Assembly: GCF_964204645.1 (NCBI RefSeq)
Contig: NC_134032.1
Coordinates: forward strand, 16,306,775-16,370,774
DNA from: Tubulanus polymorphus
Lineage: Eukaryota; Nemertea; Palaeonemertea; Tubulaniformes; Tubulanidae
Reading direction: 5' to 3'
Length of the DNA stretch: 64,000 nucleotides
Each line of letters starts with the position of its first letter. Positions within the stretch are counted from its first letter, which is position 1. Positions 6,964 through 61,734 of this stretch are shown here, piece by piece. The position numbers and the translations under genes were made by a program. The notes under the pieces were generated by a model that ran no database searches, was not told where the DNA came from, and saw only the letters and a program-made list of their open reading frames with translations.

Positions 6964-8547
6964 CTGTAAAGAGAAAAAATAAAAAATTTGTTTAGCATAA
7001 AATTAAATATCAGTATTAAAAATCAAAATGAGAAAACCAGCGATTCAACAAATAAACACCTATACGTAATTAAGATATTTGGCAATTGGCCGGGGGGGGA
7101 GAGGTGCGGGGAGGTGGGGAGTTTTAATACTGGGCTGTCATGTGATACAAATATCAGAAGTCTACAGCCTTCTTGTAAAAGTCGGCCTCTGCACACGGGC
7201 CACGGTGCCGAACTCATCAACCGAGTTGCCCCGATGACAAAATCGGATTTTGTTTGTCAGGAAATATTGGAAATCATATTCAGAGACGTGTCATGCATGC
7301 AATCTTCATTGAGAGGCTAGAGGAGTATTTCAGCCAATCACCAGTCGGACGGCATGACTCCGCAGATGGCGCTGATCGGCGAAAATATCCGTTATTCGAA
7401 AAAAAATTACTCGGATCGAAACGGTTTTACGTGGAAATCTATAATTCCATTAATAGGTTTTTGTTGAATTTGTTGCTAACTAGACGTATAGGATTATAGA
7501 ATATTTACTGAACAACTGAATTCTGAGTTGAGTGATAACTGTGCAGACTCAAAACATTGAATTCAATTCATCTTACAAACTCTAATAGAATATGATAAAA
7601 TAAATTCAGATTCTTACCTCCGTCAGATCTCCTTCAGACAGCCGTCCCCGGACTCTATCCGACCATCTTTTGGCACCCGGGGGCGGCTGTCTGATAGGCC
7701 GCTGCTGAGGCGAATTCCCGGGACGTTGTGGGGGAGGGGCAGCAGCGGGCAACAAAGGATTCACCGGTGGTGGGATCCTATCTGGTACCAAGTTTCGCGC
7801 AAAATCCTCGACAGGCCCCCTAAAGGGGCACTCCTGTAGAATATCTACGACTGTAAAATAGAAAGAGAGAAATACATTAAACAACGAGTCGAAGGGTTTC
7901 AAACGCTGTAAATATGAATATTATCCCACCAGGGGGCGTCTGACACTATTAAAATGTTATATCAATAGTTATTGCGTTGATTTAGCCGCAATCGCTGATC
8001 AGATTGTTTATTGTTTTTGGAATAACTAGGAAAAGATCAGTAATTTAAACGGTTTTACTTTGTTGTAAGGTTGCATGATTAATATTGGTTCATAATGATT
8101 CAACGAAAAATGTAGTTTTTCTAACTGAAACGTGAATTGTTTGTCTCGCTACGAGCAAATTGAGTATCAGAGATTCTGAACTTTGTGGGGCTAATAATTG
8201 GTTGAATATTTTGACTAGATTTTGAGATATCAGGTGACACTCTTATAGCTGCCCTTAAGGATATTGTATGAAAATAGTTGAACTACTTACACTCAGGTAG
8301 AAATAATCTGACGAACTCCTCTCGCCGGAACGCACGTCGAATACGAAATGCAAGTGCTGTAAAAACAATAATACAATTCATTAAAATCACATACATTGAT
8401 TACAAAACTAGTTTGAATTCTAAAGCAGTTTGTCATAGGTGAACTGTGGATCCTGAAACAGAACCCCGCCGGGTCCAGTGCCGGAACAACGATTCTGTTC
8501 TTCTAACTCTATCGAGGAGGTTGCCCCAAAACAGAGCAGATCCATCG

Positions 8548-8594
<47 letters not shown>

Positions 8595-14500: not shown

Positions 14501-17500
14501 CCACCTACACTGTGACGCGTGTTATCTATAACTGATAGTGAACGCCACCTACACCGTGGCGCGTGTTATCTATAACTGATAGTGAACGCCACCTACACTG
14601 TGACGCGTGTTATCTATAACTGATAGTGAACGCCACCTACACTGTGGCGCGTGTTATCTATAACTGATAGTGAACGCCACCTACACTGTGGCACGTGTTA
14701 TCTATAACTGATAGTGAACGCCACCTACACTGTGGCGCGTGTTATCTATAACTGATAGTGAACGCCACCTACACTGTGGCGCGTGTTATCTATAACTGAT
14801 AGTGAACGCCACCTACACCGTGGCGCGTGTTATCTATAACTGATAGTGAACGCCACCTACACTGTGACGCGTGTTATCTATAACTGATAGTGAACGCCAC
14901 CTACACTGTGGCACGTGTTATCTATAACTGATAGTGAACGCCACCTACACCGTGGCGCGTGTTATCTATAACTGATAGTGAACGCCACCTACACTGTGAC
15001 GCGTGTTATCTATAACTGATAGTGAACGCCACCTACACTGTGGCACGTGTTATCTATAACTGATAGTGAACGCCACCTACACTGTGGCGCGTGTTATCTA
15101 TAACTGATAGTGAACGCCACCTACACTGTGACGCGTGTTATCTATAACTGATAGTGAACGCCACATACACCGTGGCGCGTGTTATCTATAACTGATAGTG
15201 AACGCCACCTACACCGTGGCGCGTGTTATCTATAACTGATAATGAACGCCACCTACACCGTGGCGCGTGTTATCTATCACTGATAGTGAACGCCACCTAC
15301 ACCGTGGCGCGTGATATCTATAACTGAGTGAACGCCACCTACACCGTGGAGCGTGTTATCTATAACTGATAGTGAACGCCACCTACACCGTGACGCGTGT
15401 TATCTATAACTGATAGTGAACGCCACCTACACTGTGGCGCGTGTTATCTAAAACTGATAATGAACGCCACCTACACCGTGGCGCGTGTTATCTATCACTG
15501 ATAGTGAACGCCACCTACACCGTGGCGCGTATTATCTATAACTGATAGTGAACGCCACCTACACTGTGGCGTGTGTTATCTATAACTGAAAGTGAACGCC
15601 ACCTACACCGTGGCGCGTGTTATCTATAACTGATAATGAACGCCACCTACACCGTGGCGCGTGTTATCTATAACTGATAGTGAACGCCACCTACACCGTG
15701 GCGCGTATTATCTATAACTGATAGTGAACGCCACCTACACGTGTAGCGTGGCGTGCGGGGAGGCGTGTGGGGAGGGGTGTGGCGAGGCGTGTAGGGAGGC
15801 GTGTGGGGAGGGGTGTAGCGAGGCGTGATGCGCTTATACTCTAAAACGCTCAGGAGTCGCAGGTACCCATTTACCGCTGGGTGGAGAGAGGTGATGAGGA
15901 TAAGTGTCTCGCGCGAGGACACTACGGTAATGTACGGGGTTCGAATCCACGACCTGGATTCCCAGAGCCGCACCGCTCCACACAGAACAAATACACACAG
16001 AAAACATCAAACTAGAATTATAACTTACCGGTCGTACGGGCGACAGCGGCACGGTAGAGTCTAATGTGGTGTTCTAGAAAAATAAAATGATTTTAAAGAT
16101 TAAATCATGCATTTTCACTGCCAGAAACTGAATTCATCAAATCTATTAAATATTTCAGTGAGATGAACTGTAAAGAGCCCCCCCGGGTATTAGGGTAATT
16201 AACAGACCCTTCAGGACCCTGTTTACAATACTCCACACAATTTGATGCAGTAAACCCGATTAGAGAGATTTCTCTATTATTTGTCGTCATGCGCTGATAT
16301 AGAATATTTTGTTTGTTACACAATATCCGGCCGGAACTAATAACCGAACGCACTATAGTTCGGTCTTAACGTATTTCACGGTGTCGGCCATCTTGGAAAT
16401 GGGTTGAAAACTACAGCGACCGGCGGCCGGGCAGCAGACACACTGATAGGTAACTTGTCGAATGTTCAGATTTTGGCAGCACGCGCTGAAGCTGCCCGTA
16501 AATTACCCCGGACATATAAGAGGGAATGGGAGTTTAGGATACTGACTGATTGAAATATTTATACTTACAGGCGTCAGCCGCGGCGACTGCCTCTGATGAG
16601 GAGGAGCTCTACCCTAGAAACAACAATAATATAAACATAATTAGTCAAATTCATTAAGGGTTGAATTTTCAAACATTTCTTATGCAATGTTTTTTATTTC
16701 AAAATCAATGATTGAAAAGTTGTTTTTTAAAGAAAAATTTGATGCACAATTTTTACATGATGTTAAATGTTCCTTAATAACACATACATTGGTGAAACAA
16801 TGCGACATTTGGCCACAAGGCGTCAAATTTGTCTTTAAAAAACAACTTTTCAATCGTTGATTCTGGAAAAAATGACTTTGAAATCACCATCAAAGAGGCA
16901 TTTTTTATTTCAACTTGTCGGTTTTAATCATTTTAAGTGAACAAAAAGTATTCCGGGATGGAATCCACGAATCAAGGTCCCCAGCGATGTGGCGCCGGTA
17001 TCGGGTCCCCAGCGATGTGGCGCCGGTATCGGGTACCCAGCGATGTGGCGCCGGTATCGGGTACCCAGCGATGTGGCGCCGGTATCGGGTACCCAGCGAT
17101 GTGGCGCCGGTATCGGGTCCCCAGCGATGTGGCGCCGGTATCGGGTCCCCAGCGATGAAGGGTTTATTCAGTTTCTTCATTTAATTAATTAGATCTTCGT
17201 TATTTCAACAAGAATCGTTTAGAGACCATTTATTTATTTGAGCATCTTTAAATTTTTCAATCAATGGAGCCTTGGATCCAGCCAGATTAAAAACCGACCC
17301 CTTACATACTCATCAACCTAACAGGTGCAACAAACAGTAAAGGTTTTCAATATAAGGGATCGTTCAATCAATATGCACACACCTCTCCGTGCCTTGTGCG
17401 ACGAGCTGTCAGGGGACGAGGGTAATGAGCTGTCAGGGGACGAGGGTAACAGCTGTCAGGGGATGAGGGTAACCAGCTGTCAGGGGACGAGGGTAACGAG

Positions 17501-19367
17501 TTGTCAGGGGACGAGGGTAATGAGCTGTCAGGGGACGAGGGTAACAGCTGTCAGGGGACGAGGGTAACGAGCTGTCAGGGGACGAGGGTAACGAGCTGTC
17601 AGGGGACGAGGGTAACAGCTGTCAGGGGACAAGGGTAACAGCTGTCAGGGGACGAGGGTAACAGCTGTCAGGGGACGAGGGTAACAGCTGTCAGGGGACG
17701 GCAGTAATGAGCTGTCACGGGACTTCCTAAGAAAACTAGATTTTATCTACAGACAGACGAAAAGTGAACGCAATAGCGCAATAACTTAAGTCCCCAGTGG
17801 GATAAAAAAAGCATGAATTAGTTTGGACTTAAATGCAAGATGTTTGTTTAATCACTTACAGCTGACGGTCCTGGTATTGGTGACAAATTCTGTAAAGATA
17901 AAATGAAACAAAATATTAGATTGATATTCATGAATACATGTATCACTGATTCTTCAGTAGTTCTATAACCAATCTAAAAATTCAACACCAGTCTAAACTC
18001 ATTTTAGTTCTATAACCAATCTAACAACTTAAGACCAATCTAAGCTCATTTTAATTCTAAAACTATTCTATCAACTTGAGACCAGTCTAAGCTCATTTTA
18101 GTTCTATAACCAATCTAACAACTTAAGACCAGTCTAAGCTTATTTTAGTTCTATAACCAATCTAACAACTTCAGACCAGTCTAAACTCATTTTAGTTCTA
18201 TAACCAATCTAACAACTTAAGACCAGTCTAAACTCATTTTAGTTCTATAACCAATCTAACAACTTGAGACCAGTCTAAACTCATTCTAGTTCTATAACCA
18301 ATCTAACAACTTGAGACCAGCCTAAACTCATTTTAGTTCTATAAACAGAGAGAACACATGTAGTTGTTACTTACAGGGGTCGGCGGCGGCGGTGGCGCCA
18401 CTTGTCCCGGCGTCGGAGGTACGATCTGTAAATACAATAAAAAAATACACAATTTAAAACAAGAACTGATTTTAGTTTTAAGGTTGGAGGGAAGTCTATC
18501 AGTTTTGGGGTTGGAGGGAAGTCGATCAGTTTTGGGGTTGGAGGGAAGTCGATCAGTTTTTGGGTTGGAGGGAAGTCTATCAGTTTTGGGGTTGGAGGGA
18601 AGTCTATCAGTTTTGGGGTTGGAGGGAAGTCGATCAGTTTTGGGGTTGGAGGGAAGTCTATCAGTTTTGGGGTTGGAGGGAAGTCTATCAGTTTTGGGGT
18701 TGGAGGGAAGTCTATCAGTTTTCTTGTTGATTGTATTTATTTCTGGAGTAGCATCAGAAACATGGTTCAAAGTTCCCCCTCCCCCCAGCTGCTTCAGACT
18801 CACTACATGTGTTTATTGTAGTTATAACTTACCGACTCGCCGAGTTGTTGTTGCTGCTGTTGCTGCTGCTGTTGATGCTGGAAAAGAAAAATATTCATGC
18901 AATGACAATTGAGCTTTAGTGATAATTATGATAGATATGGATATAGGAAGGACACAGCTGTGAAATTACACTTTCAAATACGATAATAAAATAGAATAAA
19001 TGTATCGCCATGGGAACGACCAATAATCGGTGCCAAATATCGTTATTTAAATGTTACCATGGTTACTATAAATAAAAACCAGTTCACGATAGCATTTTTC
19101 ACAGAATAAATTTGCTCAATCGACCTCAAATTCAATTCAAATACCGTTTTATTCAAAACGTTGCCAAATTCGTTCATGTTTATCATTGGTCTCATTAACG
19201 GTGTTATTTAACAGAACACTTTGACTCTACCTGTTTTTACACTTGTTTTCTAATATAGTATGAATAAATTAGCATGAAAGCAGTAAATTTGAACTTACCG
19301 AAGGACTTGACGTAAGCGGCCCGGGCCGCCCGCGCGCGCCAATTGATTTTTTTGTTGCTTTTGGCAT
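6577..19367 (-). CDS. Unrecognised ten-exon micro-exon gene, about 343-residue Pro/Gln-rich basic protein
   Basis: I do not recognise this family. Coding exons in transcript order are 19367-19299, 18877-18833, 18425-18375, 17889-17860, 16613-16569, 16073-16029, 13042-12982, 8356-8291, 7850-7618 and 6963-6577. Each is bounded by AG and GT(AAG), and one frame runs through all of them: exons 1-6 are multiples of three in phase 0, exons 7 and 8 end in phase 1, exon 9 returns to phase 0, and exon 10 ends at a TAA. The product starts with a basic segment holding an AT-hook-like RGRP core, then a Gln run, Pro-rich micro-exons, an Arg-rich amphipathic segment (exon 8), a Pro-rich exon 9, and a last exon with a KKTKRKRK-type nuclear-localisation cluster and a C-terminal predicted helical stretch. 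There is no signal peptide or membrane segment, so a nuclear location is inferred. Phase consistency and conserved exon copies at 24-29 kb support it being real; function is unknown. Confidence 0.7.
7618..7850 (-). CDS. Micro-exon gene, exon 9
   Basis: 233 bp, phase 1 to phase 0, acceptor TATTTTACAG and donor GAG|GTAAG. It encodes VDILQECPFRGPVEDF, a Pro-rich middle with PPPQRP and QPPPG, and a basic end (KRWSDRVRGRLSEGDLTE). Its two halves occur separately in the plus-strand mosaic, the start at 27471 and the end before 26335. Confidence 0.7.
7925..7945 (+). promoter_or_regulatory. CTCF-like motif
   Basis: CCACCAGGGGGCGTC matches the bilaterian CTCF core (CCASYAGRKGGC). It lies in intron 8 of the micro-exon gene and is conserved in the inverted copy near 27382-27400. 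Motif match only. Confidence 0.35.
8291..8356 (-). CDS. Micro-exon gene, exon 8 (Arg-rich helix)
   Basis: 66 bp, phase 1 to phase 1, encoding roughly TLAFRIRRAFRREEFVRLFL then PE. The alternation of basic and hydrophobic residues suggests an amphipathic helix. The plus-strand copy at 26956-27021 is nearly identical, including both splice sites. Confidence 0.7.
8550..8594. repeat. AT microsatellite
   Basis: About 22 AT dinucleotides inside intron 7 of the micro-exon gene. Confidence 0.9.
8825..10378. repeat. 80-bp minisatellite, about 19 copies
   Basis: Unit holds TCACTATTTTTTTACTAAAA, TTTTTGATTTATCGGTTT, AAATTCTCTCTCTTTTCATC and AGAGCATCAGAAAAT. It is intronic (intron 7). Its flanks (about 8500-8550 and 10380-10430) share a GTTCTTCTA...AAAACAGAGCA stretch, so the array appears inserted into, or expanded within, a duplicated sequence. 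Confidence 0.9.
10379..11379. other. Unique intronic sequence
   Basis: Part of intron 7. Contains a short cluster of ACATGTACATGTAC-type palindromes at 10905-10985 and no coding potential that I can support. Confidence 0.5.
11380..12415. repeat. 29-bp minisatellite, about 36 copies
   Basis: Unit GCTAAAGCTAGGGGCACACG plus AGCTATAAA. Alternate units read GCTTAAGCTA, and about a dozen units lack the GA of CACGAGCT (27 bp). It sits in intron 7 about 570 bp from exon 7. Confidence 0.9.
12982..13042 (-). CDS. Micro-exon gene, exon 7
   Basis: 61 bp from acceptor TTTACAG to donor CGTA|GTAAG. It starts in phase 0 and ends in phase 1, encoding SFDDSGPLLPPETPPALQAR plus one base. It lies between the two largest introns, which hold the 44-bp and the 80-/29-bp arrays. 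Confidence 0.6.
13155..15740. repeat. 44-bp minisatellite, about 58 copies
   Basis: Unit TGATAGTGAACGCCACCTAC, ACTGTGGCGCGTG, TTATCTATAAC. It fills most of intron 6. Variation is mainly at CpG-type positions (CACTGTG/CACCGTG, GGCGCG/GACGCG), consistent with methylated CpG decay (inference). Confidence 0.95.
15741..15830 (+). repeat. G-rich GGCGTGTGGGGAGGGGTGT repeat
   Basis: Short G-rich array at the end of the 44-bp repeat with several runs of 3-4 G; the strand could form a G-quadruplex (inference). A GGTTCGAATCC B-box-like sequence follows at about 15938. Confidence 0.6.
16029..16073 (-). CDS. Micro-exon gene, exon 6
   Basis: 45 bp, phase 0 to phase 0, encoding NTTLDSTVPLSPVRP. Two plus-strand copies exist: 24951-25001 (51 bp, two extra codons and substitutions) and 27722-27766 (45 bp). 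Both keep acceptor, donor and phase, the best evidence that this short segment has been an exon. Confidence 0.7.
16569..16613 (-). CDS. Micro-exon gene, exon 5
   Basis: 45 bp, phase 0 to phase 0, acceptor TTTCTAG and donor CCT|GTAAG. It encodes GRAPPHQRQSPRLTP, with SP/TP sites that could be proline-directed kinase targets (inference). Confidence 0.6.
16978..17153. repeat. 28-bp minisatellite, about 6 copies
   Basis: Unit CCAGCGATGTGGCGCCGGTA plus TCGGGTCC or TCGGGTAC, in intron 4. 28 is not a multiple of three, so the three plus frames each run through all phases; apparent ORFs here are artefacts. Confidence 0.9.
17399..17722. repeat. 21/24-bp minisatellite (AGCTGTCAGGGGACGAGGGT)
   Basis: About 14 units of AGCTGTCAGGGGACGAGGGT with AAC, AACG or AATG between them, in intron 4. 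Confidence 0.9.
17860..17889 (-). CDS. Micro-exon gene, exon 4 (30 bp)
   Basis: A 30-bp micro-exon between TTTACAG and GTAAG, phase 0, encoding NLSPIPGPSA. It is too short to trust alone, but both splice sites are near consensus and the phase fits its neighbours. Confidence 0.55.
17960..18345. repeat. 47-bp minisatellite derived from a foldback MITE
   Basis: About 8 units of TCTATAACCAATCTAACAAC, TTAAGACCAGTCTAAACTCA, TTTTAGT. The reverse complement matches the interior of the foldback elements at 49227-49370, 55542-55690 and 56741-56915 (TTAGATTGG-TATAGAACTA...CTGGTCTTAA). Confidence 0.85.
18375..18425 (-). CDS. Micro-exon gene, exon 3 (Pro-rich)
   Basis: 51 bp, phase 0 to phase 0, acceptor TTTACAG and donor CCT|GTAAG. 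It encodes IVPPTPGQVAPPPPPTP, a proline-rich linker of the type bound by SH3 or WW domains. No copy was seen in the plus-strand mosaic. Confidence 0.65.
18480..18722. repeat. 27-bp minisatellite, about 9 copies
   Basis: Unit GGTTGGAGGGAAGTCTATCA plus GTTTTGG in intron 2. 27 is a multiple of three, which opens frames on both strands. Confidence 0.9.
18833..18877 (-). CDS. Micro-exon gene, exon 2 (poly-Gln)
   Basis: 45 bp, phase 0 to phase 0, acceptor TTTTCCAG and donor TCG|GTAAG. It encodes His, ten Gln and LGES. The CAG/CAA mix is the kind of tract that expands and contracts. The exon is identical at 25232-25276 on the plus strand. Confidence 0.65.
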
Positions 19368-19370
19368 ATT
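19299..19370 (-). CDS. Micro-exon gene, exon 1 (start codon exon)
   Basis: The exon follows a good acceptor (TTTTTCTAG) with ATG three bases inside it at 19367-19365, so an upstream non-coding exon is expected. It encodes 23 residues, starting MPKATKKS and holding GARGRPGPL, whose RGRP resembles an AT-hook core. The donor is TCG|GTAAG, phase 0. A diverged copy with intact splice sites lies at 28772-28843 on the plus strand. Confidence 0.7.
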
Positions 19371-22968: not shown

Positions 22969-23139
22969 CACTAAAATTAGAATAATGAAATCATAGATGG
23001 TGAAAATATACAAAGAGAAGAACAGACACTATGTGTAATAAATGAAACATGTGACCTGAGCTAGTAACAGCAACGGTTAGCGGACTAGTGGAGAATAAGA
23101 CACACAGGGGTACCACTAAATCAGGGAAAACAGGCCTCA

Positions 23140-23510
23140 GTCAGTGAGAACTATGTATGAGCGGACTGACGGATCGTCTCTCGATCTGCATGCATAAACC
23201 ACCTACATCCAGTCCGAAACGAAAAAAGACAAATGACAACAAGGCAAAGTGGCGCAAAAAATAACTAGACTGCAGTAGTGAGGTGGTTATGGTGCAGGGG
23301 TTGTTTGCAATCATACAGATCCTGGATCGATCGCCCAAAGAGCTCTCGATCTGCGTGCTTAAAATACCTCTCAATCCAGTCCAAATGACAAGTAGTGAAG
23401 TAGTGCAGAAAATAATGTGACCTTAGCAACAAGAAGGTGGTTATGGTGTTGGGGGGGGGGGGGTAAAGTTGCTCATGCTGCAGCTACCAACAAACTTCTC
23501 AAATCGGAAA
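23140..23510. repeat. Dispersed repeat, copy 1
   Basis: About 350 bp repeated in the same direction at 25637-25985 (CTCGATCTGCATGC...AAAGTTGCTCATGCTGC). On the minus strand it holds GATCGATCC, a fit to the Pol III B box, and it is repeated internally (CTCGATCTGC twice). A SINE is possible but not shown. Confidence 0.5.
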
Positions 23511-23884
23511 TGACTTTTAAAACGCAGGAACAATAATCAGTATGGATGTACAATCTGTAGATGGACTGTCCTTAGAGATCCACAATATCCAATAATAGTA
23601 TGGAATGAATATTCTCTAGTTCTACACAGTGCAGTCGTTATTCAGGAATTGTATATTTTCTTCACTTGAAAAAAAAGTGTTCTGCAAGAGATGAAGCTGC
23701 CAGTCACGAAGCAACTCTTAACTGAAAGCACAATGTGGGACTGCTCCTGCCAACATTCTGAGCAGTCCTCAGCATCTCCTGGAGCTCCACCATCGTGATG
23801 ACCAACCACCAAACTAAAACAACCAGGTACATCAGATGATCTGGCGGGGCTATACGGGCAATAACACAGCAGGACCTCGCCTGA

Positions 23885-24580
23885 AAGTATTGCCATTGAA
23901 TTGGCTAAGCAACAAGGAGAGTCTGAACAAGGCTACGAGGCAGCTACCCAACTATGGGAATCAGTAATCAGGTGCGCGAAAAAAATTAATCCCACCCCAA
24001 AGCTGTCTCAACAGCCTGAGGAGCTAGCTCCACGAACCCCTGAGTTGGCTCCTCCGCAGGTGGTGGACCCTGTTTCGCCGGTGCAGGTGGTTGCGCCCAC
24101 CGTATCTTCGGATACGGAGGTCGCGCCGCCTGTTGCCCCGGAGCAGGAAGTTGCCCCTGCCGTGGTAGCCCCGACAGAGGCGCCACAGGTTCAGGCTCCT
24201 GGCCCGCGCAGATCGCCCCAGAAAAAATCGAAAGGAGGTCGATTATACAGGAGGTTCGGGGCGATCTACTCCTAAAAAAAGAAAACGTGCGGCTCCTCCC
24301 CAACAGCCAGATACATCGGAGGAGTCGAGTGATGAGGAGTTACCTACAGCTCCTAGAGCCTCACCGCCAGGGTCCTCACCACCAGCGTGACGACCAACAC
24401 CACCAAAAACAACAACCGCTCCGGCGGGGGTAGAACCCTCCCCCGTCGTAGAGCTCGTCGCGCGGGGCCCTGGCTGGTCAAGGATAATTGAGTTCGACGA
24501 CCCAATTACCTTGCTCCGCGACGTCGAAGGGGCATTCCATGGGGAATACAAATTTATAAAGCGGAGGAGAACACGTTGAT
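23885..24580 (+). pseudogene. Broken long exon of the micro-exon gene family
   Basis: An open reading frame beginning ESIAIELAKQQGESEQGY and continuing through a Pro/Val/Ala-rich stretch. It shifts frame near 24235-24250. In the new frame it has KKRKR, the acidic ESSDEE and Pro-rich sequence to an in-frame TGA near 24388, then goes on in the same frame (WSRIIEFDDPITLL, ending KRRRTR) to TGA near 24578. The acceptor present at the 27879 copy (TTTCAG) is missing here. One frameshift, one stop and a lost splice site mark it as decayed. Function unknown. Confidence 0.55.
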
Positions 24581-24639
24581 TCTCCTCACCCCTTCACTCG
24601 CCGTCACTCCGTGGGCATCAAGATCAGCCCACACAGCAC

Positions 24640-24830
24640 GTCTGCAGATCGACACTTCAAGAGTTGTCCCTGTGGATGGTGCGGCTTATGAAAGCAATCA
24701 GGAGGAAGGGGTAAGAGTAAATAGGAAGCAGCCGAGCTGATGGTGGTGGGGCTGGCGAGTGATCGAGTGGCCCGAGAGGTAGAGGTGGTGGCCTGGCATA
24801 CCGATGGAGAGTGGGAGGAGCGTTAATTAC
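24640..24830 (+). pseudogene. Exon-10-like fragment fused to intron 5 sequence
   Basis: Resembles the middle and end of exon 10 (EEGVR-NRK, then VAREVEVV-HTDG-WEER) with a premature TGA. At 24827 it switches abruptly to intron 5 sequence (match to 16140-16200 on the opposite strand). Confidence 0.55.
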
Positions 24831-24950
24831 CCTAATACCTGGGGGGCTCCTTACAGTTCATCTCACTGGAATATTTAATAGATTTGATGAATTCAGTTTC
24901 TCGCAGTGAAAATGCATGATTTAATCTTTAAAATCATTTTATTTTTCTAG

Positions 24951-25001
24951 AACACGACATTTGACTCGGACGAAACCGTGCAGCTGTCGCCCGTACGACC
25001 G
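24951..25001 (+). pseudogene. Copy of exon 6 (51 bp, diverged)
   Basis: TTTTTCTAG and GTAAG flank NTTFDSDETVQLSPVRP. Two codons longer than the minus-strand exon 6 but still phase 0. The flanking introns also match the minus-strand gene. It could be functional if a transcript existed; context says fragment. Confidence 0.55.
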
Positions 25002-25231
25002 GTAAGTTATAATTCTAGTTTGATGTTTTTCAGTACTGTAAGATGACATAAATTCCGGATTTTTTCTTATATTTTACTAATTGTTGAAATTCAAAACAAA
25101 TGCTATATTCTATTTTATCATCGTATTTGAAAGTGTAATTTCACAGCTGTGTCCTTCCTATATCTATATCTATCATAATTATCACTAAAGCTCAATTGTC
25201 ATTGCATGAATATTTTTTTTTTCTTTTCCAG

Positions 25232-25276
25232 CATCAACAGCAGCAGCAACAGCAGCAACAACAACTCGGCGAGTCG
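25232..25276 (+). pseudogene. Copy of exon 2 (poly-Gln)
   Basis: 45 bp with intact acceptor and donor, same Gln run and LGES end as minus-strand exon 2. It sits downstream of an exon 6 copy, the reverse of the gene's exon order. Confidence 0.55.
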
Positions 25277-25474
25277 GTAAGTTATAACTACAATAAACAC
25301 ATGTAGTGAGTCTGAAGCAGCTGGGGGAGGGGAGGGGGAGGGGGGAACGTTGAACCATGTTTCTGCTGCTACTGCTGACACGTAATGATCCCCCCTCATA
25401 TACAACACCTCATACTACAGTAATGTATTGTAGTATTTGATTACTACTCCAGGTGGTTCGCCAGTTCTTTACAG

Positions 25475-25631
25475 ACACGACCACCTCCAAAAAAGAAAAA
25501 CAAACGTGGTTCACCAGTGAGGGGAAGCAAGAGTCATCACCAGTGGTTGATGAGCTTATTGAAGGTAATCAGGAGGAAGGGGTAGGGTTAGATAGGGGGA
25601 AGAGGCCAAGGCGGGATGATGGTGGGTCCTG
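25475..25631 (+). pseudogene. Exon-10-like fragment, frame lost
   Basis: Starts after TTTACAG with TRPPPKKKNKRGSP, as exon 10 does, then loses frame. The later EEGVG-RKRPRRDDGG pattern is in a different frame and stops at TGA. Confidence 0.5.
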
Positions 25632-25636
25632 AATCT

Positions 25637-25985
25637 ATAGATCTCTCAATCTGCATGCTTAAACCACCAGCAAAATACATCTACATCCAGTCCGAAAGAA
25701 AGAAGAGACAAATGACAACAAAGCAAAGTGGTGCAAAAAATAACTAGACCGCAGCAATGAGGTGGTTGTGGTGCAGGGGTTGTTTGCAATCAAACAGATC
25801 CTGGATCGATCACCTATTAAGCTCTCGATCTGCGTGCTCAAATTACCTCTAAATCCAGTCCAAAATAACAACAAGGTGAAATAATGCAGAAAATAACTAG
25901 ACCGCAGTAATGAGAAGGTTATCGTGGGTTGAGGGGGGTAAAGTTGCTCATGCTGCTGCTACCAACAAACTTCTCACATATCAAA
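25637..25985. repeat. Dispersed repeat, copy 2
   Basis: Second copy of the 23140-23510 element, inserted directly after the broken exon-10-like segment of the scrambled locus. The two copies bracket about 2.1 kb of gene fragments. Confidence 0.5.
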
Positions 25986-25997
25986 GGGTAGCCATGC

Positions 25998-26334
25998 CAT
26001 GCCGTGGTAGCCCCGACAGAGGCGCCACAGGTTCAGGCTCCTGGCCCGTGCAGATCGCCCCGGAAAAATCGAAAGGAAGCTGACTCACGGGAGGTTTGGG
26101 GCGATCGGGTATCAAGATCAGCCCACACAGCACGTCTGCAGATCGACACTTCTAGAGTTGTCCCTGTGGATGGTGCGGCTGATGAAAGCAATCGGGAGGA
26201 AGGGGTAAGAGTAAATAGGAAGCAGCCGAGGAGGGATGGTGGTGGGGCAGGTGCGGGTCCTGCTGCACCTCCTCTATCAGAAATTAGTCAGAAAGAGTCC
26301 GGGGACGGCTGTCTGAAGGAGATCTGACGGAGGT
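25998..26334 (+). pseudogene. Chimeric exon fragment (long exon, exon 10 middle, exon 9 end)
   Basis: Open from about 25998: VAPTEAPQVQAPGP (as in the 23885 exon), then VDGAADESNREEGVRVNRK (exon 10 middle), then a piece matching the end of exon 9 at the DNA level, finishing at the exon 9 donor (GAG|GTAAG). The three pieces are not collinear with the minus-strand gene. Confidence 0.5.
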
Positions 26335-26955
26335 AAGAATCTTTATTTGTTTTGTCTTATTCTATTTGAGTTTGAAAGATGAATTGAATTCAATGTTTTG
26401 AGTCTGCACAGTTATCACTCAACTCAGAATTCAGTTGTTCAGTAAATATTCTATAATCCTATACGTCTAGTTAGCAACAAATTCAACAAAAACCTATTAA
26501 TGGAATTATAGATTTCCACGTAAAACCGTTTCGATCCGAGTAATTTTTTTTCGAATAACGGATATTTTCGCCGATCAGCGCCATCTGCGGAGTCATGCCG
26601 TCTGACTGTTGATTGTCATAGATAACATCATAAATATAAAATAAAAAAGTTAAATTTAAAAAAAAATTAAATTAAATTAAAAAAAAAAAAAATAAAATAA
26701 AATAAATTTGTATTCGTTAAGAAATTGCGGAAAGTACAATTTTGACAGCATTTGCCCTTTAATCCGATTGATCTGCTCTGTTTTGGGGCAACCTCCTCGA
26801 TAGAGTTAGAAGAACAGAATCGTTGTTCCGGCACTGGACCCGGCGGGGTTCTGTTTCAGGATCCACAGTTCACCTATGACAAACTGCTTTAGAATTCAAA
26901 CTAGTTTTGTAATTAATGTATGTGATTTTAATGAATTGTATTATTGTTTTTACAG

Positions 26956-27021
26956 CACTTGCATTCCGTATTCGACGTGCGTTCCGGCGAGAGGAGTTCG
27001 TCAGATTATTTCTACCTGAGT
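26956..27021 (+). pseudogene. Copy of exon 8
   Basis: 66 bp, near-identical to minus-strand exon 8 with both splice sites. About 450 bp of intron on its downstream side also matches intron 8 in inverted orientation. Confidence 0.6.
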
Positions 27022-27470
27022 GTAAGTAGTTCAACTATTTTCATACAATATCCTTAAGGGCAGCTATAAGAGTGTCACCTGATATCTCAAAATCTAGTCA
27101 AAATATTCAACCAATTATTAGCCCCACAAAGTTTAGAATCTCTGATACTCAATTTGCTCGTAGCGAGACAAACAATTCACGTTTCAGTTAGAAAAACTAC
27201 ATTTTTCGTTGAATCATTAAGAAATTGTAATGTGACAAATAATCATGCAACCTTACAACAAAGTAAAACTGTTTAAATTACTGATCTTTTCCTAGTTATT
27301 CCAAAAACAATAAACAATCTGATCAGCGATTGCGGCTAAATCAACGCAATAACTATTGATATAACATTCTAATAGTGTCAGGCGCCCCCTGGTGGGATAA
27401 TATTCATATTTACAGCGTTTGAAACCCTTCGACTCGTTGTTTAATGTATTTCTCTCTTTCTATTTTACAG

Positions 27471-27597
27471 TCATAGATATTCTACAGGAGTGCCCCTTTA
27501 GGGGGCCCATTGAGGATTTTGCGCAAAACTTGGTACCAGATAGGATCCCACCACCGGTGGCCCGGCATACCGATGGAGAGTGGGAGGAGCGTTAATT
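27471..27597 (+). pseudogene. Exon 9 start fused to exon 10 end
   Basis: Begins as exon 9 (IDILQECPFRGP), but after PPPV it passes in frame into exon 10 sequence (ARHTDGEWEER) and stops at TAA where it meets intron 5 sequence. The exon 9/10 switch falls in a shared CCGGTGG-like stretch. Confidence 0.55.
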
Positions 27598-27721
27598 ACC
27601 CCTTATACCCGGGGGGGCTCTTTACAGTTCATCTCACTGGAATATTTAATAGATTTGATGAATTCAGTTTGTCGCAGTGAAAATGCACGATTTAATCTTT
27701 AAAATGATTTTATTTTTCTAG

Positions 27722-27766
27722 AACACGACATTAGACTCCACCGTCCCGCTGTCGCCCGTACGACCG
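27722..27766 (+). pseudogene. Second copy of exon 6
   Basis: 45 bp, NTTLDSTVPLSPVRP, intact splice sites; closest to minus-strand exon 6. Confidence 0.6.
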
Positions 27767-27878
27767 GTAAGTTATAATTCTAGTTTGATGTTTTTCAGTA
27801 CTATAAGATGACAATGATGTATATCCCAAATAAATGTCTCATATTCGTCATCCTTAATAATTTTTCTTTTCATTTCAG

Positions 27879-28087
27879 CTGAAAGTATTGCCATTGAATT
27901 TGCTAAACAACAAGGAGAGGCTGAACAAGGCTACGAGGCAGCTACCCAACTATGGGAATCAGTAATAAGGTGTGGCAAAAAAAATAATCCCACCCCAAAG
28001 CTGTCTCAACAGCCTGAGGAGCCAGCTCCACGAACCCCTGAGTTGGCTCCTCCGCAGGTGGTGGACCCTGTTTCGCCGGTGCAGGTG
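27879..28087 (+). pseudogene. Copy of the extra exon (ESIAIEFAKQQ)
   Basis: Follows a good acceptor (CATTTCAG). The long frame needs one base from the previous exon, so it fits after exons ending in phase 1 (7 or 8), not after the phase-0 exon 6 that precedes it. It reads ESIAIEFAKQQGEAEQGY and on to PVSPVQV, then is cut at 28087 by intron 9 sequence. No equivalent exists in the minus-strand gene. Confidence 0.55.
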
Positions 28088-28190
28088 TTTATAGGTGTTT
28101 ATTTGCTGAATCGCTGGTTTTCTCATTTTGATTTTTAATACTGATATTTAATTCTATGCTAAACAAATTTTTTATTTTTTCTCTTTACAA

Positions 28191-28490
28191 ACACGACCAC
28201 CGCCTAAAAAAACCAAAAGAAAAAGTTGCGGTCGTCGTGGCTCCTCAGGGAGGGGAGGCAAGAGTTGCCCCTGCGGATGGTGCGGCTGATCAAGGCAATC
28301 AGGAGGAAGGGGTAAGAATAAATAGGAAGAGGCCGAGGAGAGATGGTGGTGGGGCTGGGGCTGGTGCGGGTCCTGCTCCTCCTGCTCCTCCATCCGTATC
28401 TCGGGCGGTCACTCGTTCACTCGCCAGACAATGTTGTTCCAGCACTACAGCATTGATCAGAAAGAGTCCGAGGGCGGCTGTATGGTGAAA
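28191..28490 (+). pseudogene. Copy of exon 10, acceptor destroyed
   Basis: Matches exon 10 from TRPPPKK to VTRSLA, but the acceptor reads TTTACAA instead of TTTACAG and five bases are missing in the Lys/Arg cluster, shifting the frame. The tail (from 28428) is replaced by unrelated sequence plus a piece like the end of exon 9. Confidence 0.6.
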
Positions 28491-28771
28491 AATTTTTAGC
28501 CTGACCGATGAGGAATCACCTGACCAGGCGGGGAATCACCTGACCTAATTTACATTTTTGAGGAGAAATCCATTAGTAGCCGAGGTGTCTGACTTGTACT
28601 TTACATTCTGTTGAGCGATTGTTACTAGATTCACCTGTTTATTAGTTACTTTATGTTCAGTACTCTACTGAGTGAACCATATACAGGAATAATTGACTAA
28701 ACTGTGCATGATTCATGTCTGATATAATAATCTATTTTCATATGATTTAATTGTTTTATTTATTTTTCTAG

Positions 28772-28843
28772 AAAATGCCAAAAGCTATAAAAAAATCTGT
28801 TCGCGGGCGCGGGCGGCCCGGGCCGCTTACGTCAAGTCCTTCG
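28772..28843 (+). pseudogene. Copy of exon 1
   Basis: TTTTTCTAG, ATG at 28775, 23 codons with two RG repeats (RGRGRPGPL), donor TCG|GTAAG. Upstream 220 bp match the 5' intron of the minus-strand gene. It is the last exon in the mosaic although it should be first. Confidence 0.6.
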
Positions 28844-29434
28844 GTAAGTTCAAATTTACTGCTTTCATGCTAATTTATTCATACTATATTAGAAAACAAG
28901 TGTAAAAACAGGTAGAGTCAAAGTCCCTGCTTGCAGAGATTTAATATTTCTACCCTGCATGATTTTTGTAATTCTTTTTATTGTTGATGGTGAAATAATT
29001 ATCATTATTCTCTTTCTATTCGCTTTAAATCAAACTTTTATAAATAATATTTTGCAAAAATCTACGCGAAGAAAGTTGGATATAGGTGGCGCTGTTTAAC
29101 ATGTACAGGTCGAGCTGCTATACGCGTCCCATGGAAAGTGAAAATAAATTTGTATTCATATTTATTTAAGAAGGATCTAAGATTCATCAGAGTGAGAAAT
29201 ACAAGCAGTGAAGAACCAATTAATTTAATGCACAATCATATATTTATATATAAACTATAGGAGTTTAAACCTTAATTTTCATATTTTTTCCTAAGTCCCT
29301 ATTTTTCTTGCAATCATAAAAAGACAGCAGAAACAGCTGAACAGAAAAACATTGAAAACATTGGAAACAGCTGAACAGATAACATTGGAAACAGCTGAAC
29401 AGATAACATTGGAAACAGATGAAAAGATAACAAA
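28844..29434. other. AT-rich sequence, no gene seen
   Basis: The first 80 bp match intron 1 of the micro-exon gene, then the match ends near 28922. Remaining sequence shows four AACATTGGAAACAGCTGAACAG-like units at 29345-29425. Confidence 0.45.
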
Positions 29435-29700: not shown

Positions 29701-29789
29701 GGAGTTTTGAAAACTTGCATCTTTATTTCCTATACACTGAAAAAATTCTTAAGGCTTAAAGATTGAAATATTTCTACTTATCTTTTCTT

Positions 29790-30425
29790 TCATGCTGCTC
29801 CTGCGAGTGTGGTGGTCTCAGTGGATGCTGCTCCTGCGAGTGTGGTGGTCTCAGTGGATGCTGCTCGTGAGAGTGTGGTGGTCTCAGTGGATGCTGCTCC
29901 TGCGAGTGTGGTGGTCTCAGTGGATGCTGCTCCTGCGAGTGTGGTGGTCTCAGTGGATGCTGCTCCTGCGAGTGTGGTGGTCTCAGTGGATGCTGCTCCT
30001 GCGAGTGTGGTGGTCTCAGTGGATGCTGCTCCTGCGAGTGTGGTGGTCTCAGTGGATGCTGCTCCTGCGAGTGTGGTGGTCTCAGTGGATGCTGCTCCTG
30101 AGAGTGTGGTGGTCCCAGTGGATGCTGCTCCTGCGAGTGTGGTGGTCCCAGTGGATGCTGCTCCTGCGAGTGTGGTGGTCTCAGTGGATGCTGCTCGTGA
30201 GAGTGTGGTGGTCTCAGTGGATGCTGCTCCTGCGAGTGTGGTGGTCCCAGTGGATGCTGCTCCTGCGAGTGTGGTGGTCTCAGTGGATGCTGCTCGTGAG
30301 AGTGTGGAGGTCTCAGTGGATGCTGCTCCTGCGAGTGTGGAGGTCTCAGTGGATGCTGCTCGTGAGAGTGTGGTGGTCTCAGTGGATGCTGCTCCTGCGA
30401 GTGTGGTGGTCTCAGTGGATGTTCC
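29790..30425. repeat. 33-bp minisatellite, about 19 copies
   Basis: Unit GATGCTGCTCCTGCGAGTGT plus GGTGGTCTCAGTG. Because 33 is a multiple of three, long frames are open on both strands (HPLRPPHSQEQ on minus; VVVSVDAAPAS and MLLLRVWWSQW on plus). I treat none as a gene; a 229-codon minus frame (30463-29774) is the only one with non-repeat ends. Confidence 0.9.
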
Positions 30426-30429
30426 ATGT

Positions 30430-31820
30430 TCTCAAGAGGAATGCCTGAAATCATAAAATTCAAATGTTATAAAAACCAGTTTGATTGATCTGAAAATTAT
30501 GAAGCAAAGGTGGTCACAGGGGCGCGGTCCTAGTATTGTGTGACACTAAGGTAACGATTGAAACAGCAGCAGCAGAAGCTGCAGCAGCAACATCAATGGT
30601 TAGAGACTTTGATGGGTGTAATGCTGGTGGTGGCGGTATCAGTCAGTGGAGAGTTGTAAAACCCTAAACTAACAACATTTCACGGATTTGGTAACTTGTG
30701 ACCTGTACGTGTTTTTTAGATGACATCATATCGGGTCTGTTCATTCTCATGTTGTGCAATAAATGTTTTTAATCATCTTTGGTGATAACCTCTTTCGACT
30801 GGGCTTATAAATATAACTGGTTTAGTTTGTGATAGAGACCACACACTGGTTACAGACAGTGATACCGGCTGAAGCGCACACGTGTCACTACAGTCGTATT
30901 AGTGAAATGCTGAAGAGGAAGTGACTGGATTGCGGGGATTCCCCTGCAGAAATTCATCGCGCATTAAACTCTTTTGCTGCAGGTGTAACGATTATATTGG
31001 AGAGCGGAAGGAGGTAGATGCAATCCTCGCTTGCCAGGGCCACCTTCGGTTATCTGAGTTAGTCGAACTAAGTGAAACCGAATGTCCGTTAGTCGGAACT
31101 ATAGTCCGGAAATAGTTCGAAAATCAAGCGCATTCGATTATTTGTTCCGACCACTAGTCGACTAGATACGAAAACCGAATTTGGCCCAGGGGTCTGGTAT
31201 CGCTCAACGACTGACGTCATATATCAACTTGCGGAATACTTCCTTTCGCTGATCGCCGATTGGTCCATTTAACGGAATATCCAACTGACGGTTGTTACAA
31301 GCGCTGTGATTGGCCCGGTTCGAGAACAGATCAAAGCGCAGTGGGTTCGAATCCCTAGTGGGTGTCAAGATGAACTGAGGGTGGGACAACTTATAAAACA
31401 ATGGCATAATCCACGACAAATTTTGGTGGTGATTGCAAATTTACTTCCTTTGTGCAACTTCTAAGCAAAGTCCTGATGCTTTCTAGAACATTAACTGCAT
31501 TGAGATTTCCAGACAATAAATATGAATGGTGCCCTTTTGTTTATAGAATTATCAGCCTCGTCTTGTGAAAATGTGTGCCCCCTTTCTACCTATGGGATCA
31601 GACTATTATGAAAAGGGGCAGGAAATTTTGAAGACAGTAGCACATGCGCGTGGAGCATCATACCGTCTGAATCCGGAGCCAGCCTAGTTTCGTTGAATGT
31701 CAAACCACTTGCTTCCAGATAGGAAATTGCGCAACAAGTTTTCAACACCTTTCATTGAGCAAGAAACAAACGGTTTTCAGGAATCCTAATGAATATATGA
31801 TTTAAATAACTTACTCTTGT
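30430..31820. other. Non-repeat interval, no gene supported
   Basis: Contains a CAG/CTG-rich patch near 30565-30590, a B-box-like GGTTCGAATCC at about 31344 and an inverted-repeat-rich stretch at 31055-31165 (TAGTCGAACTA / TAGTCGACTA). No spliced frame that I trust. Confidence 0.4.
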
Positions 31821-33385: not shown

Positions 33386-33562
33386 ACCGTACGGTGCTGC
33401 CGCTATGCTCATTGTTAGCGGGATTTTCATACACTAACGTAAGTCAACTCTGGCAAGCTAGGGTGAGGGAGTATAACTGGACAGCACGTCGATTGCCAGA
33501 GTTGGCTTTAGTTAGTGTATGAAAATCCCGCTAACGATGAGCTTAGAAGCAGCACCGTACGG
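33386..33562. mobile_element. Foldback element, about 70-bp arms
   Basis: The left arm (CCGTACGGTGCTGC ... GTTAGCGGGATTTTCATACA ... CAACTCTGGCAA) pairs with the right arm around a roughly 40-bp loop. No coding capacity; non-autonomous foldback or MITE. The left breakpoint of the 1.9-kb tandem duplication falls inside its left arm at 33414. Confidence 0.6.
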
Positions 33563-34552
33563 CTGGATTTATCGGATATTGACCTGAAATATATAGTTCA
33601 CTAAAAATCTAATAGATGGCGATCATATAGGAATTCACAATGAGTGTTTAATTTCAATCAATTAGGTATCTACATTAATAGACTTGGGTTTGAACCCGGG
33701 ACGCACTCCGAGTGGGACAGCATTTAATGCATAATAGCAAAATCACTTAAAATCAAATTGATTGCAGAAAAATCCATACTTTTTTATTCTTCAAACAAAT
33801 GATTATAAATTTCAATTCGAAATCAACAAAAACTATACCAGGATCGCTGATACCAGGATCGCTGATACCAGGATCGCTGGAATCAGGAATCACTGATACC
33901 AGGATCGCTGATACCAGGATCGCTGGAATCAGGAATCACAGATACCAGGATCGCTGGAATCAGGAATCACTGATACCAGGATCGCTGATTTCAGGAATCA
34001 CTGATACCAGGATCGCTGAAAATCACTTCAAACACCTTTCACAATTTATTTATTTATACAAGAAAAAGTATCAAAACGTAGCGAAAAATTGGGTTAATTT
34101 TGAAAGTTAAGAATCCTCGTTTTAAAATCTATTCACAAATTTACACAGCATTATTTGGGTTCGCATGAGAAAATGCGATCAAGTTTCGCACATTCAGCAG
34201 TATTCGATTTCAGATTTTTTTAAACTCATCACCGAGTTAAAAATGAGTTCCTGGGTCCAGAGGGCGCTGCATATGCTCAATAGTTAGTTAGAGTTAACCA
34301 GTGGATGGTTGATATAGTAACAATTAAAACTTAATTGTAATCATGTTATCTTTCAGCAGGTTATACATATGTAACTCACGTTTGAGGAACTGCAGCGCCC
34401 TCTAAATATTGTAGAGTGCAACTAGGTCCAAGATTTCCTTCAAATCGAAAAAAAAACATTCTAAATAGGATAAAACATGTATATTGATTATAAATATGGA
34501 ATAAATTATGAATATGTGCCATAAAAGTTACCAGCATCTCGGCTTCACGAGG

Positions 34553-34592
34553 TGACCTTGAACCTTGACCTTGCAATGACAAGGTCAAGGTA
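34553..34592. promoter_or_regulatory. Cluster of nuclear-receptor half-sites
   Basis: TGACCTTGA (a perfect complement of TCAAGGTCA) followed by an 11-bp inverted repeat CCTTGACCTTG ... CAAGGTCAAGG with a 6-bp spacer. This fits ERR or FTZ-F1/NR5A binding sites. The same cluster recurs at 36447-36486 in copy 2. Motif only. Confidence 0.4.
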
Positions 34593-35123
34593 CTAAGCGT
34601 ACCGTACTTGTATTACTGAACCGGAACTCGACCGGAAATGAGTGACGTGTGATATTGAGATTGATAGAACGTCGCCCTTAATTACAATAAGCACTCTGTT
34701 AAACACAGAAACCCTAGGGCTGATCTCATCCTCGCGAGCCCTAGGGCTTCACGTCCTCACTAGCCCTAGAGCTTCTCGTCCCTCACTAGCCCTAAGGCTT
34801 CACATGCTCGTGAGCCATTTAATGCTTATACAATCGTGTAGATATATCTATGAAAGTGACTTCTAATTATCATTTTACTAGATATATTATATAAATTAAC
34901 AAATATCTCTTTGACTCAGTAATAAACAATGACTAGACAGCTGTAGGTTAGACAGCTGCTAAATAGACAGCCGCTAAATAGACAGCCGATAGATAGACAG
35001 CCGCTAACTATCATTTCATCACAACGAAATATTCACTATTTCTGTTTTTCCTATTTTTAAGATTCGTCAGAAAATTCGCGGACGAAATAAATTCTCTTTC
35101 GACTATAGACCCTTAAAGAGTAA

Positions 35124-35275
35124 TGACGTCATAGTGGGGATGCAAGTAAGCGGCCATCTTTTTTCGGAAGGATCTATAGTATTAATAGACGAAATAAAAC
35201 GAATATAATTCTACGTTCTAATTCATACATCTGACATTCCTATGACGTCATCATCGACGACGTTAGATGACGTCA
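35124..35275. promoter_or_regulatory. Three perfect CRE sites (TGACGTCA)
   Basis: TGACGTCA at 35124-35131, 35243-35250 and 35268-35275, with a YY1-like GCGGCCATCTTTT at 35150. Repeated in copy 2 at 37018, 37137 and 37162. The density suggests a promoter or enhancer, but no transcript start is visible. Confidence 0.4.
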
Positions 35276-35307
35276 TAACGTACTTCGAACACGCAACACA
35301 AAAAACC

Positions 35308-37201
35308 GTTAGCGGGATTTTCATACACTAACGTAAGTCAACTCTGGCAAGCTAGGGTGAGGGAGTATAACTGGACAGCACGTCGATTGCCAGAGTTGGC
35401 TTTAGTTAGTGTATGAAAATCCCGCTAACGATGAGCTTAGCAGCAGCACCGTACGGCTGGATTTATCGGATATTGACCTGAAATATATAGTTCACTAAAA
35501 ATCTAATAGATGGCGATCATATAGGAATTCACAATGAGTGTTTAATTTCAATCAATTAGGTATCTACATTAATAGACTTGGGTTTGAACCCGGGACGCAC
35601 TCCGAGTGGGACAGCATTTAATGCATAATAGCAAAATCACTTAAAATCAAATTGATTGCAGAAAAATCCATACTTTTTTATTCTTCAAACAAATGATTAT
35701 AAATTTCAATTCGAAATCAACAAAAACTATACCAGGATCGCTGATACCAGGATCGCTGATACCAGGATCGCTGGAATCAGGAATCACTGATACCAGGATC
35801 GCTGATACCAGGATCGCTGGAATCAGGAATCACAGATACCAGGATCGCTGGAATCAGGAATCACTGATACCAGGATCGCTGATTTCAGGAATCACTGATA
35901 CCAGGATCGCTGAAAATCACTTCAAACACCTTTCACAATTTATTTATTTATACAAGAAAAAGTATCAAAACGTAGCGAAAAATTGGGTTAATTTTGAAAG
36001 TTAAGAATCCTCGTTTTAAAATCTATTCACAAATTTACACAGCATTATTTGGGTTCGCATGAGAAAATGCGATCAAGTTTCGCACATTCAGCAGTATTCG
36101 ATTTCAGATTTTTTAAAACTCATCACCGAGTTAAAAATGAGTTCCTGGGTCCAGAGGGCGCTGCATATGCTCAATAGTTAGTTAGAGTTAACCAGTGGAT
36201 GGTTGATATAGTAACAATTAAAACTTAATTGTAATCATGTTATCTTTCAGCAGGTTATACATATGTAACTCACGTTTGAGGAACTGCAGCGCCCTCTAAA
36301 TATTGTAGAGTGCAACTAGGTCCAAGATTTCCTTCAAATCGAAAAAAAAACATTCTAAATAGGATAAAACATGTATATTGATTATAAATATGGAATAAAT
36401 TATGAATATGTGCCATAAAAGTTACCAGCATCTCGGCTTCACGAGGTGACCTTGAACCTTGACCTTGCAATGACAAGGTCAAGGTACTAAGCGTACCGTA
36501 CTTGTATTACTGAACCGGAACTCGACCGGAAATGAGTGACGTGTGATATTGAGATTGATAGAACGTCGCCCTTAATTACAATAAGCACTCTGTTAAACAC
36601 AGAAACCCTAGGGCTGATCTCATCCTCGCGAGCCCTAGGGCTTCACGTCCTCACTAGCCCTAGAGCTTCTCGTCCCTCACTAGCCCTAAGGCTTCACATG
36701 CTCGTGAGCCATTTAATGCTTATACAATCGTGTAGATATATCTATGAAAGTGACTTCTAATTATCATTTTACTAGATATATTATATAAATTAACAAATAT
36801 CTCTTTGACTCAGTAATAAACAATGACTAGACAGCTGTAGGTTAGACAGCTGCTAAATAGACAGCCGCTAAATAGACAGCCGATAGATAGACAGCCGCTA
36901 ACTATCATTTCATCACAACGAAATATTCACTATTTCTGTTTTTCCTATTTTTAAGATTCGTCAGAAAATTCGCGGACGAAATAAATTCTCTTTCGACTAT
37001 AGACCCTTAAAGAGTAATGACGTCATAGTGGGGATGCAAGTAAGCGGCCATCTTTTTTCGGAAGGATCTATAGTATTAATAGACGAAATAAAACGAATAT
37101 AATTCTACGTTCTAATTCATACATCTGACATTCCTATGACGTCATCATCGACGACGTTAGATGACGTCATAACGTACTTCGAACACGCAACACAAAAAAC
37201 C
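35308..37201. repeat. 1,894-bp tandem duplication, copy 2
   Basis: Second copy. The junctions share GTTAG (33414, 35308 and 37202), a five-base microhomology typical of replication-based or end-joining duplication. Confidence 0.9.
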
Positions 37202-37206
37202 GTTAG

Positions 37207-37833: not shown

Positions 37834-61734
<23,901 letters not shown>

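Follow-up and report, generated by a model that had tools for sequence, protein, structure and literature searches.

The small secreted salivary gland protein genes SSSGP-1 of the Hessian fly form a tandem cluster that includes one inverted copy and in which noncoding sequence is conserved while coding sequence varies. In the cited passages of their description, positive selection together with concerted homogenization of the noncoding parts is proposed, and the ratio of nonsynonymous to synonymous substitution (dN/dS) lies above 1 in the tabled pairs (PMC2955719). The micro-exon genes of schistosomes, as the quoted sections describe them, consist of many short exons between long introns and encode secreted proteins (PMC10526429). 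The KQY and KHI families of the pea aphid, built from miniature exons, comprise large genes whose growth is proposed to have come about by combining parts; in KQY1a, 33 of 37 exons are of 15 bp or smaller, and the excerpted account gives the loci as mostly scattered and the signal peptide as common (PMC7495047). Here, we describe a scrambled stretch of DNA from the nemertean Tubulanus polymorphus, at positions 23600–28930 of an analysed window of 64,000 nucleotides (C8:16306775–16370774, where C8 is contig NC_134032.1; the genome comprises 267.8 Mb in 77 contigs). Positions given without a contig name are those of the window. The stretch carries, on the plus strand, pieces of a predicted minus-strand gene (gene A) and of a second putative gene (gene B), and is likely to be what remains, after decay and rearrangement, of an inverted array of shortened gene copies in tandem. 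This reading draws directly on the order of the pieces, a collinear second locus with a regular array, junctions shared between the two loci and recurrence of the arrangement on contigs C3 and C6. A contrast between exons and introns was also observed in the family.

The gene pieces were placed by comparing the window with itself using blastn and by exon-by-exon blastn. Gene A is predicted, from consensus splice sites and frame, as a full-length gene of ten exons on the minus strand (6577–19370), with exons 1–5 at 19299–19370, 18833–18877, 18375–18425, 17860–17889 and 16569–16613 and exons 6–10 at 16029–16073, 12982–13042, 8291–8356, 7618–7850 and 6577–6963. As predicted, the exons join into an open frame for a protein of 343 amino acids. 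Exons 1–6 measure 72, 45, 51, 30, 45 and 45 nt, each divisible by three. A paralogue with the same ten exons lies at C8:15.135–15.149 Mb. The long exon that is also present in the stretch had been assigned to the minus-strand gene in the initial annotation, but no counterpart was found in gene A. It matches C8:15898887–15899658, which is open, and C8:15016608–15017378, which has one frameshift, at 96% each; these sites are 0.4 and 1.3 Mb from the window on the same contig, and we take the long exon as the last exon of another gene, gene B.

Fifteen inverted matches to gene A cover 3001 of the 5331 bases of the stretch, and there are no matches in the same orientation. As a control, 20 first-order Markov random sequences of like composition were searched, none of which gave a match. 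On the plus strand the pieces run in the order long exon, 10, 6, 2, 10, (a copy of the flank with pieces of the long exon), 10, 9 end, 8, 9 start–10 end, 6, long exon, 10, 1. Inverted matches between gene A and 24.7–28.9 kb reach 796 nt at 97% in the self-comparison, the longest being that around exon 8; the 72-nt copy of exon 1 sits inside a 379-nt match at 97%. No match to exons 3, 4, 5 or 7 was found by blastn within 23000–29300. Inverted pieces of the exons and introns of the minus-strand gene had been reported here by the initial annotation, and both their presence and the order of those that it listed were confirmed; its list was incomplete, with a flank copy and further long-exon pieces also lying between 25678 and 26153. 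Its description of the pieces as DNA-level copies holds as well, because introns come along with the exons, and a processed retrocopy was rejected on the same ground.

The window from 2834 to 33199 is collinear with C8:15131356–15177109, 1.2 Mb away (the sequence compared was taken from 15131001 onward, and the duplication may extend farther to the left). Outside the stretch, the chain covers 21,493 of 25,702 window bases at a mean identity of 93.7%, whereas the middle of the duplicated locus measures 4.7 kb in the window and 19.2 kb in the duplicate. Opposite 23881–28546 of the window, the duplicate has a 38-bp repeat array, one variant unit, six complete units (U1–U6) and then exon 1 of a seventh. 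The six complete units are 2679–2703 bp in length (2.69 kb), occupy the same place and have the same orientation as the window stretch, and five of them are 97.7–98.3% identical to the sixth, which served as the query. A unit consists of exon 1, exon 5, a long-exon stretch joined to the end of exon 10, exon 6, roughly 200 nt from the start of the long exon, then exon 10 and a short tail; between it and the next unit sits a piece of the sequence that lies upstream of exon 1. The units are shortened genes, in which exons 1, 5, 6, (B) and 10 follow one another in transcript order. The statement that the pieces stand in the wrong order for any single transcript is true of the window, but the tandem unit that is its apparent source has its exons in the right order.

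Junctions were compared using 61-nt probes at 28 window positions, which were searched against the C8 paralogous locus and 17 other family loci. Seven of the positions, representing six junction types, recur in six or seven array copies each, with identities of 91–98%. The right edge of the window stretch was found once at the paralogous locus; the position 27230 is not a junction, its probe having matched the full gene there. Because they are found in the array at the second locus, the shared chimeric joins would predate the locus duplication, and the additional joins in the window probably arose later.

Read along the plus strand, the stretch opens with a frameshifted copy of the long exon of gene B (23881–24656), 96% identical to both C8 long-exon sites. 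This is followed by two joined pieces of exon 10 (24658–24822), the junctions of which at 24755 and 24822 are also present in six paralogous array units, and by exon 6 (24926–25026) and exon 2 (25218–25301), each within flanking introns (24822–25048 and 25106–25373, respectively). Diverged exon 10 pieces (25466–25626; 76 and 93%), a second copy of the nongenic flank 23200–23501 (25678–25976; an 85% direct repeat) and two long-exon pieces (25997–26153) come next, and then a further piece of exon 10 (26154–26274; 86%) and the end of exon 9 (26287–26353) with the following intron (26287–26615; 97%). Exon 8 (26931–27046), intron 8 and the start of exon 9 form a single piece (26764–27559; 97% over 796 nt), which adjoins the end of exon 10 (27556–27591; 92%); the match from the start of exon 9 to the end of exon 10 spans 27446–27591. 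A second exon 6 (27697–27791) with flanking introns (27591–27813), whose junction at 27591 is also found in six paralogous units, is followed by an intron end and the first 209 nt (27879–28087) of the gene B long exon (27804–28087; 94% to L013), with junctions 27808 and 28088 each present at seven places of the paralogous locus. Exon 10 (28166–28426) with its upstream intron and the unit tail (28090–28487) has junction 28427 in common with six paralogous units. The right edge of the stretch, common to the paralogous array, is formed by exon 1 (28774–28845; match 28747–28868) with flanking introns (28546–28924; 97%). Decay is evident in the long exon, which is read in two frames, and in the last exon 10, where the acceptor AG is changed to AA. 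The copy of exon 1, at the far edge, has no known downstream exon.

The wider family was surveyed using exon 1 of a C6 copy as the query; the resulting counts are lower bounds, and orientation and spacing were compared by hand. At least 28 full-length matches were obtained (18 on C6, nine on C3 and one on C8), and among the matches listed neighbouring full-length matches within an array are 31–78 kb apart. At least 13 shortened exon 1 matches were found on C3 and C6; all 13 that were listed run opposite to the nearest listed full copy and are on its upstream side, at a distance of about 10–27 kb from exon 1 of that copy. A further composite of shortened copies in tandem is present on the minus strand at C6:1036001–1050000 (L072, L073), opposite to the C6 gene array; in it, exon 1 and another piece of exon 1 are followed in order by exons 2, 4 and 9. 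Its copies are 2.2–3.4 kb apart (one interval is 2.68 kb), and two of the three exon 9 copies recovered are frameshifted. A pattern search of this composite for exons 2 and 4 found neither, although blastn places both there. The order at one C3 locus is different, with exon 2 and exon 10 pieces preceding exon 1. Because the arrangement recurs on C3 and C6 as well as on C8, the placing of inverted shortened copies upstream of full genes is a habit of the gene A family, their make-up varying from place to place. The clusters of the family are 0.3–1.7 Mb from a contig end on C8, C6 and C3, and the window stretch is about 0.35 Mb from the end of C8 (16,677,571 bases). Arrays of TTAGGG occur in the genome, as on contig C4 within 65 kb of its start. 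A search for COX1 gave no match, and neither did one for GFP, the control of which also matched nowhere.

The history that we propose would begin with an ancestral shortened copy, in which exon–intron blocks of gene A and part of the gene B exon were joined upstream of and opposite to gene A. This copy would then have been duplicated in tandem, and the array carried along in a duplication of the whole locus. In the window the array would later have shrunk and been rearranged again, probably by end joining or template switching, and copied sequence from exons 8 and 9 and from the adjacent flank would have been inserted. The window stretch would make no protein of its own and would at most take part in gene conversion with the full genes, an exchange that would maintain the similarity of the introns. 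The repeatedly rearranged cluster that had been suggested from the initial reading of the window is supported. Several observations weigh against the proposed history. At 19 of the 28 probed positions the paralogous locus gave no match across the position, and the 17 other family loci compared gave such a match at none of the 28; for this reason, we can only infer the later history of the window. When 13 junctions were examined for overlap, six could be placed, with overlaps of 0–2 bp and none explained in all 26 bases, and seven were too weak to judge, so that the chemistry of the junctions is weak evidence. Finally, array units U2 and U3 have kept an open 1-5-6-10 frame, and some units may therefore still make a short protein.

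The open frame of these two units also favours a rival explanation, in which the shortened inverted copies are live genes or switches, either coding for short proteins from the small N-terminal exons or giving transcripts by which the full genes are regulated. The units carry upstream sequence and splice sites, and copies so arranged lie upstream of full genes on three contigs, C3, C6 and C8. We nevertheless consider this explanation unlikely: units U1 and U4 contain stops, GTAA is missing at the exon 1 donor of U5 and U6, and in five of the six units exon 6 joined to the B piece, when read in the gene A frame, encodes LKL before reaching a stop. The frameshifts in two of the three C6 exon 9 copies and the lost acceptor of exon 10 in the window speak against it in the same way.

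Two further explanations had been offered in the initial annotation. A misassembly of tandem paralogues might be suspected in a region rich in tandem repeats (95 rows) and close paralogues, but six junction types recur in the array units at 91–98% identity, as random joins would not. The case against a misassembly is based mainly on this recurrence, since it indicates that the joins were inherited and are not the product of one assembly error. The flanks are moreover collinear on both sides, the two loci are 1.2 Mb apart on one contig and the exon variants differ between copies; we regard a misassembly as very improbable. The joining of pieces of two genes, introns included, is also what a fragment-capturing transposon of the Pack type or a Helitron-like element would produce. 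No Pfam family was detected in four open reading frames tested in the stretch. At a minimum length of 16 and a seed of 10, settings that could overlook shorter or diverged ends, no terminal inverted repeats of useful length were found in 23100–29000; the best pair, 21 nt at 90%, falls within the copies of exon 10. The stretch yielded no mobile element, Helitron ends and target-site duplications not having been searched for. The same flanks are present at both C8 loci because the flanks were themselves duplicated, in a segmental duplication, and the composition of the composites differs between the loci on C8, C6 and C3. The claim of a transposon is thus unsupported, and we consider such an origin extremely unlikely. 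The relic of an inverted tandem array is the reading that we retain.

Exons and introns of the family have diverged to different extents. Among ten copies of exon 1 around the two C8 loci the exon differs by up to 19% and the flanking intron by 0–4%, with exon divergence exceeding intron divergence in 43 of 45 pairs and not in the other two. For the 28 full copies on C3, C6 and C8 (L032–L059) the values are 15.5% for the exon and 1.1% for the flanks, and the exon is the more divergent in 364 of 378 pairs. The contrast is smaller in shortened copies (18.6% versus 10.2%; 49 of 66 pairs), 12 of the 13 listed having been analysed. Silent and replacement differences in exon 1 were counted in 27 of the 28 full copies (L042, with a one-base deletion and hence a frameshift, was left out) and amount to 0.364 and 0.090, respectively (pN/pS, the replacement-to-silent ratio, of 0.25), compared with 0.0043 in 100 adjoining intron columns. 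Silent sites in exon 1 therefore differ 84 times as often as the adjoining intron. Variable columns number 26 of 66 in the exon and nine of 159 in the flanks, which was reached in none of 100,000 permutations (a test that ignores the relatedness of the copies). The variation sets in at the splice site, and the triplet that precedes the ATG is variable as well.

Exon 8 was compared in 20 copies, out of 40 matches listed, and gave values of 0.230 for silent, 0.043 for replacement and 0.0067 for intron differences. In one C8 copy this exon differs from that of the window gene at 43 of 66 positions, whereas the 80-base flanks are 83–92% alike. In the pairs compared, the similarity of exon 7 and of the greater parts of exons 9 and 10 is about that of the introns, which counts against a simple exon-wide rule, and exons 2–4 are nearly the same in the window gene and its C8 paralogue. 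Exon and intron distances are weakly correlated (0.28). The possibility that whole gene copies are simply old was rejected, as 18 pairs with no intron differences in 325 columns differ at 0–14 of 66 exon positions (mean 3.4). We favour an explanation in which gene conversion keeps the introns and some exons alike, while certain exons, having diverged under selection, would escape conversion and keep old silent differences.

It is conceivable, though we give it only a slim chance for both versions together, that the inverted shortened copies and the exon-limited silent divergence belong to one system. In one version, a conflict at the RNA level, exons would be pushed to differ even at silent sites and so escape homology-dependent silencing by transcripts of the inverted arrays; in the other, a cassette system, the near-identical introns would act as homology arms and the shortened arrays would store extra exon variants. 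The 84-fold ratio and the onset of variation at the splice site, with the pre-ATG triplet included, are in keeping with such a system. So are the 12 shortened copies examined, all of which carry exon 1 variants present in none of the 28 genes (the nearest gene differs at 2–17 of 66 positions) and seven of which have flanks that differ from a gene at 0–3 of 120 positions. However, the flanks of the other five differ at 11–16 of 120 positions, the lack of any exact exon 1 match to the genes means that no recent donation is seen, and exon 7 and most of exon 10, which belong to the same predicted mRNA, are not divergent. Gene conversion acting together with selection on certain exons remains the explanation that we prefer for the exon–intron contrast.

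The predicted product of gene A starts with MPKATKK, is proline-rich and contains a basic stretch, PPKKTKRKRKV, which we take to resemble the nuclear signal of SV40. Neither the 343-residue product nor the long exon gave a Pfam family above the cutoff, and a search of the PDB with the 343-residue product yielded no convincing relative (best E value 0.91). Five of the nine introns of gene A contain minisatellite arrays with units of about 24–80 bp (window 8.8–18.7 kb). To the right of the stretch, a 33-bp repeat in 19 copies (29792–30421), also present at the paralogous locus, contains open frames of 213–231 codons on both strands; a match to PF18140 at 29767–30453, although over the cutoff, was disbelieved as a translation of this repeat array. 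Farther along, the window contains a head-to-tail pair of a 1.9-kb stretch with 99.9% identity (33414–37206), a series of minus-strand open reading frames at 37.4–57.6 kb and a tRNA-like match on the plus strand (59859–59931; 32.5 bits against an Rfam cutoff of 29). The minus-strand frames are coiled-coil-like in appearance and might be exons of a single large gene; for four, Pfam matches were weak only.

With the second locus at hand, an apparent jumble becomes a readable history, and a single family, located close to the ends of three or more large contigs, is seen to make inverted, shortened, tandem copies repeatedly. Silent sites in some of its exons differ far more than the adjacent intron, which selection acting on proteins does not by itself account for; the gene A family is therefore well suited to examining how multigene families are shaped by gene conversion, selection and possibly RNA silencing. 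Compared with the systems outlined above, it is like SSSGP-1, as far as the cited passages describe that cluster, in having introns more conserved than coding sequence between paralogues for exons 1 and 8 (not for exon 7 or most of exons 9 and 10). It differs in that silent change exceeds replacement change in exons 1 and 8, rather than giving dN/dS above 1, and in having many small exons and shortened composite arrays; the likeness is one of pattern. Exons 1–6 of gene A, with 30–72 nt in multiples of three, recall the schistosome micro-exon genes as portrayed in the quoted sections, but the products of the latter are secreted whereas that of gene A is predicted to start with MPKATKK (PMC10526429). 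A further gene family, likewise extremely variable, is presented in the consulted part of its description as single-gene loci with possibly thousands of alleles, whereas the gene A family has tens of loci, which are arranged in arrays. The gene A family resembles the pea aphid families, as the excerpted account presents them, in combining large genes and small exons, although its exons are of at least 30 nt and its loci lie in arrays.

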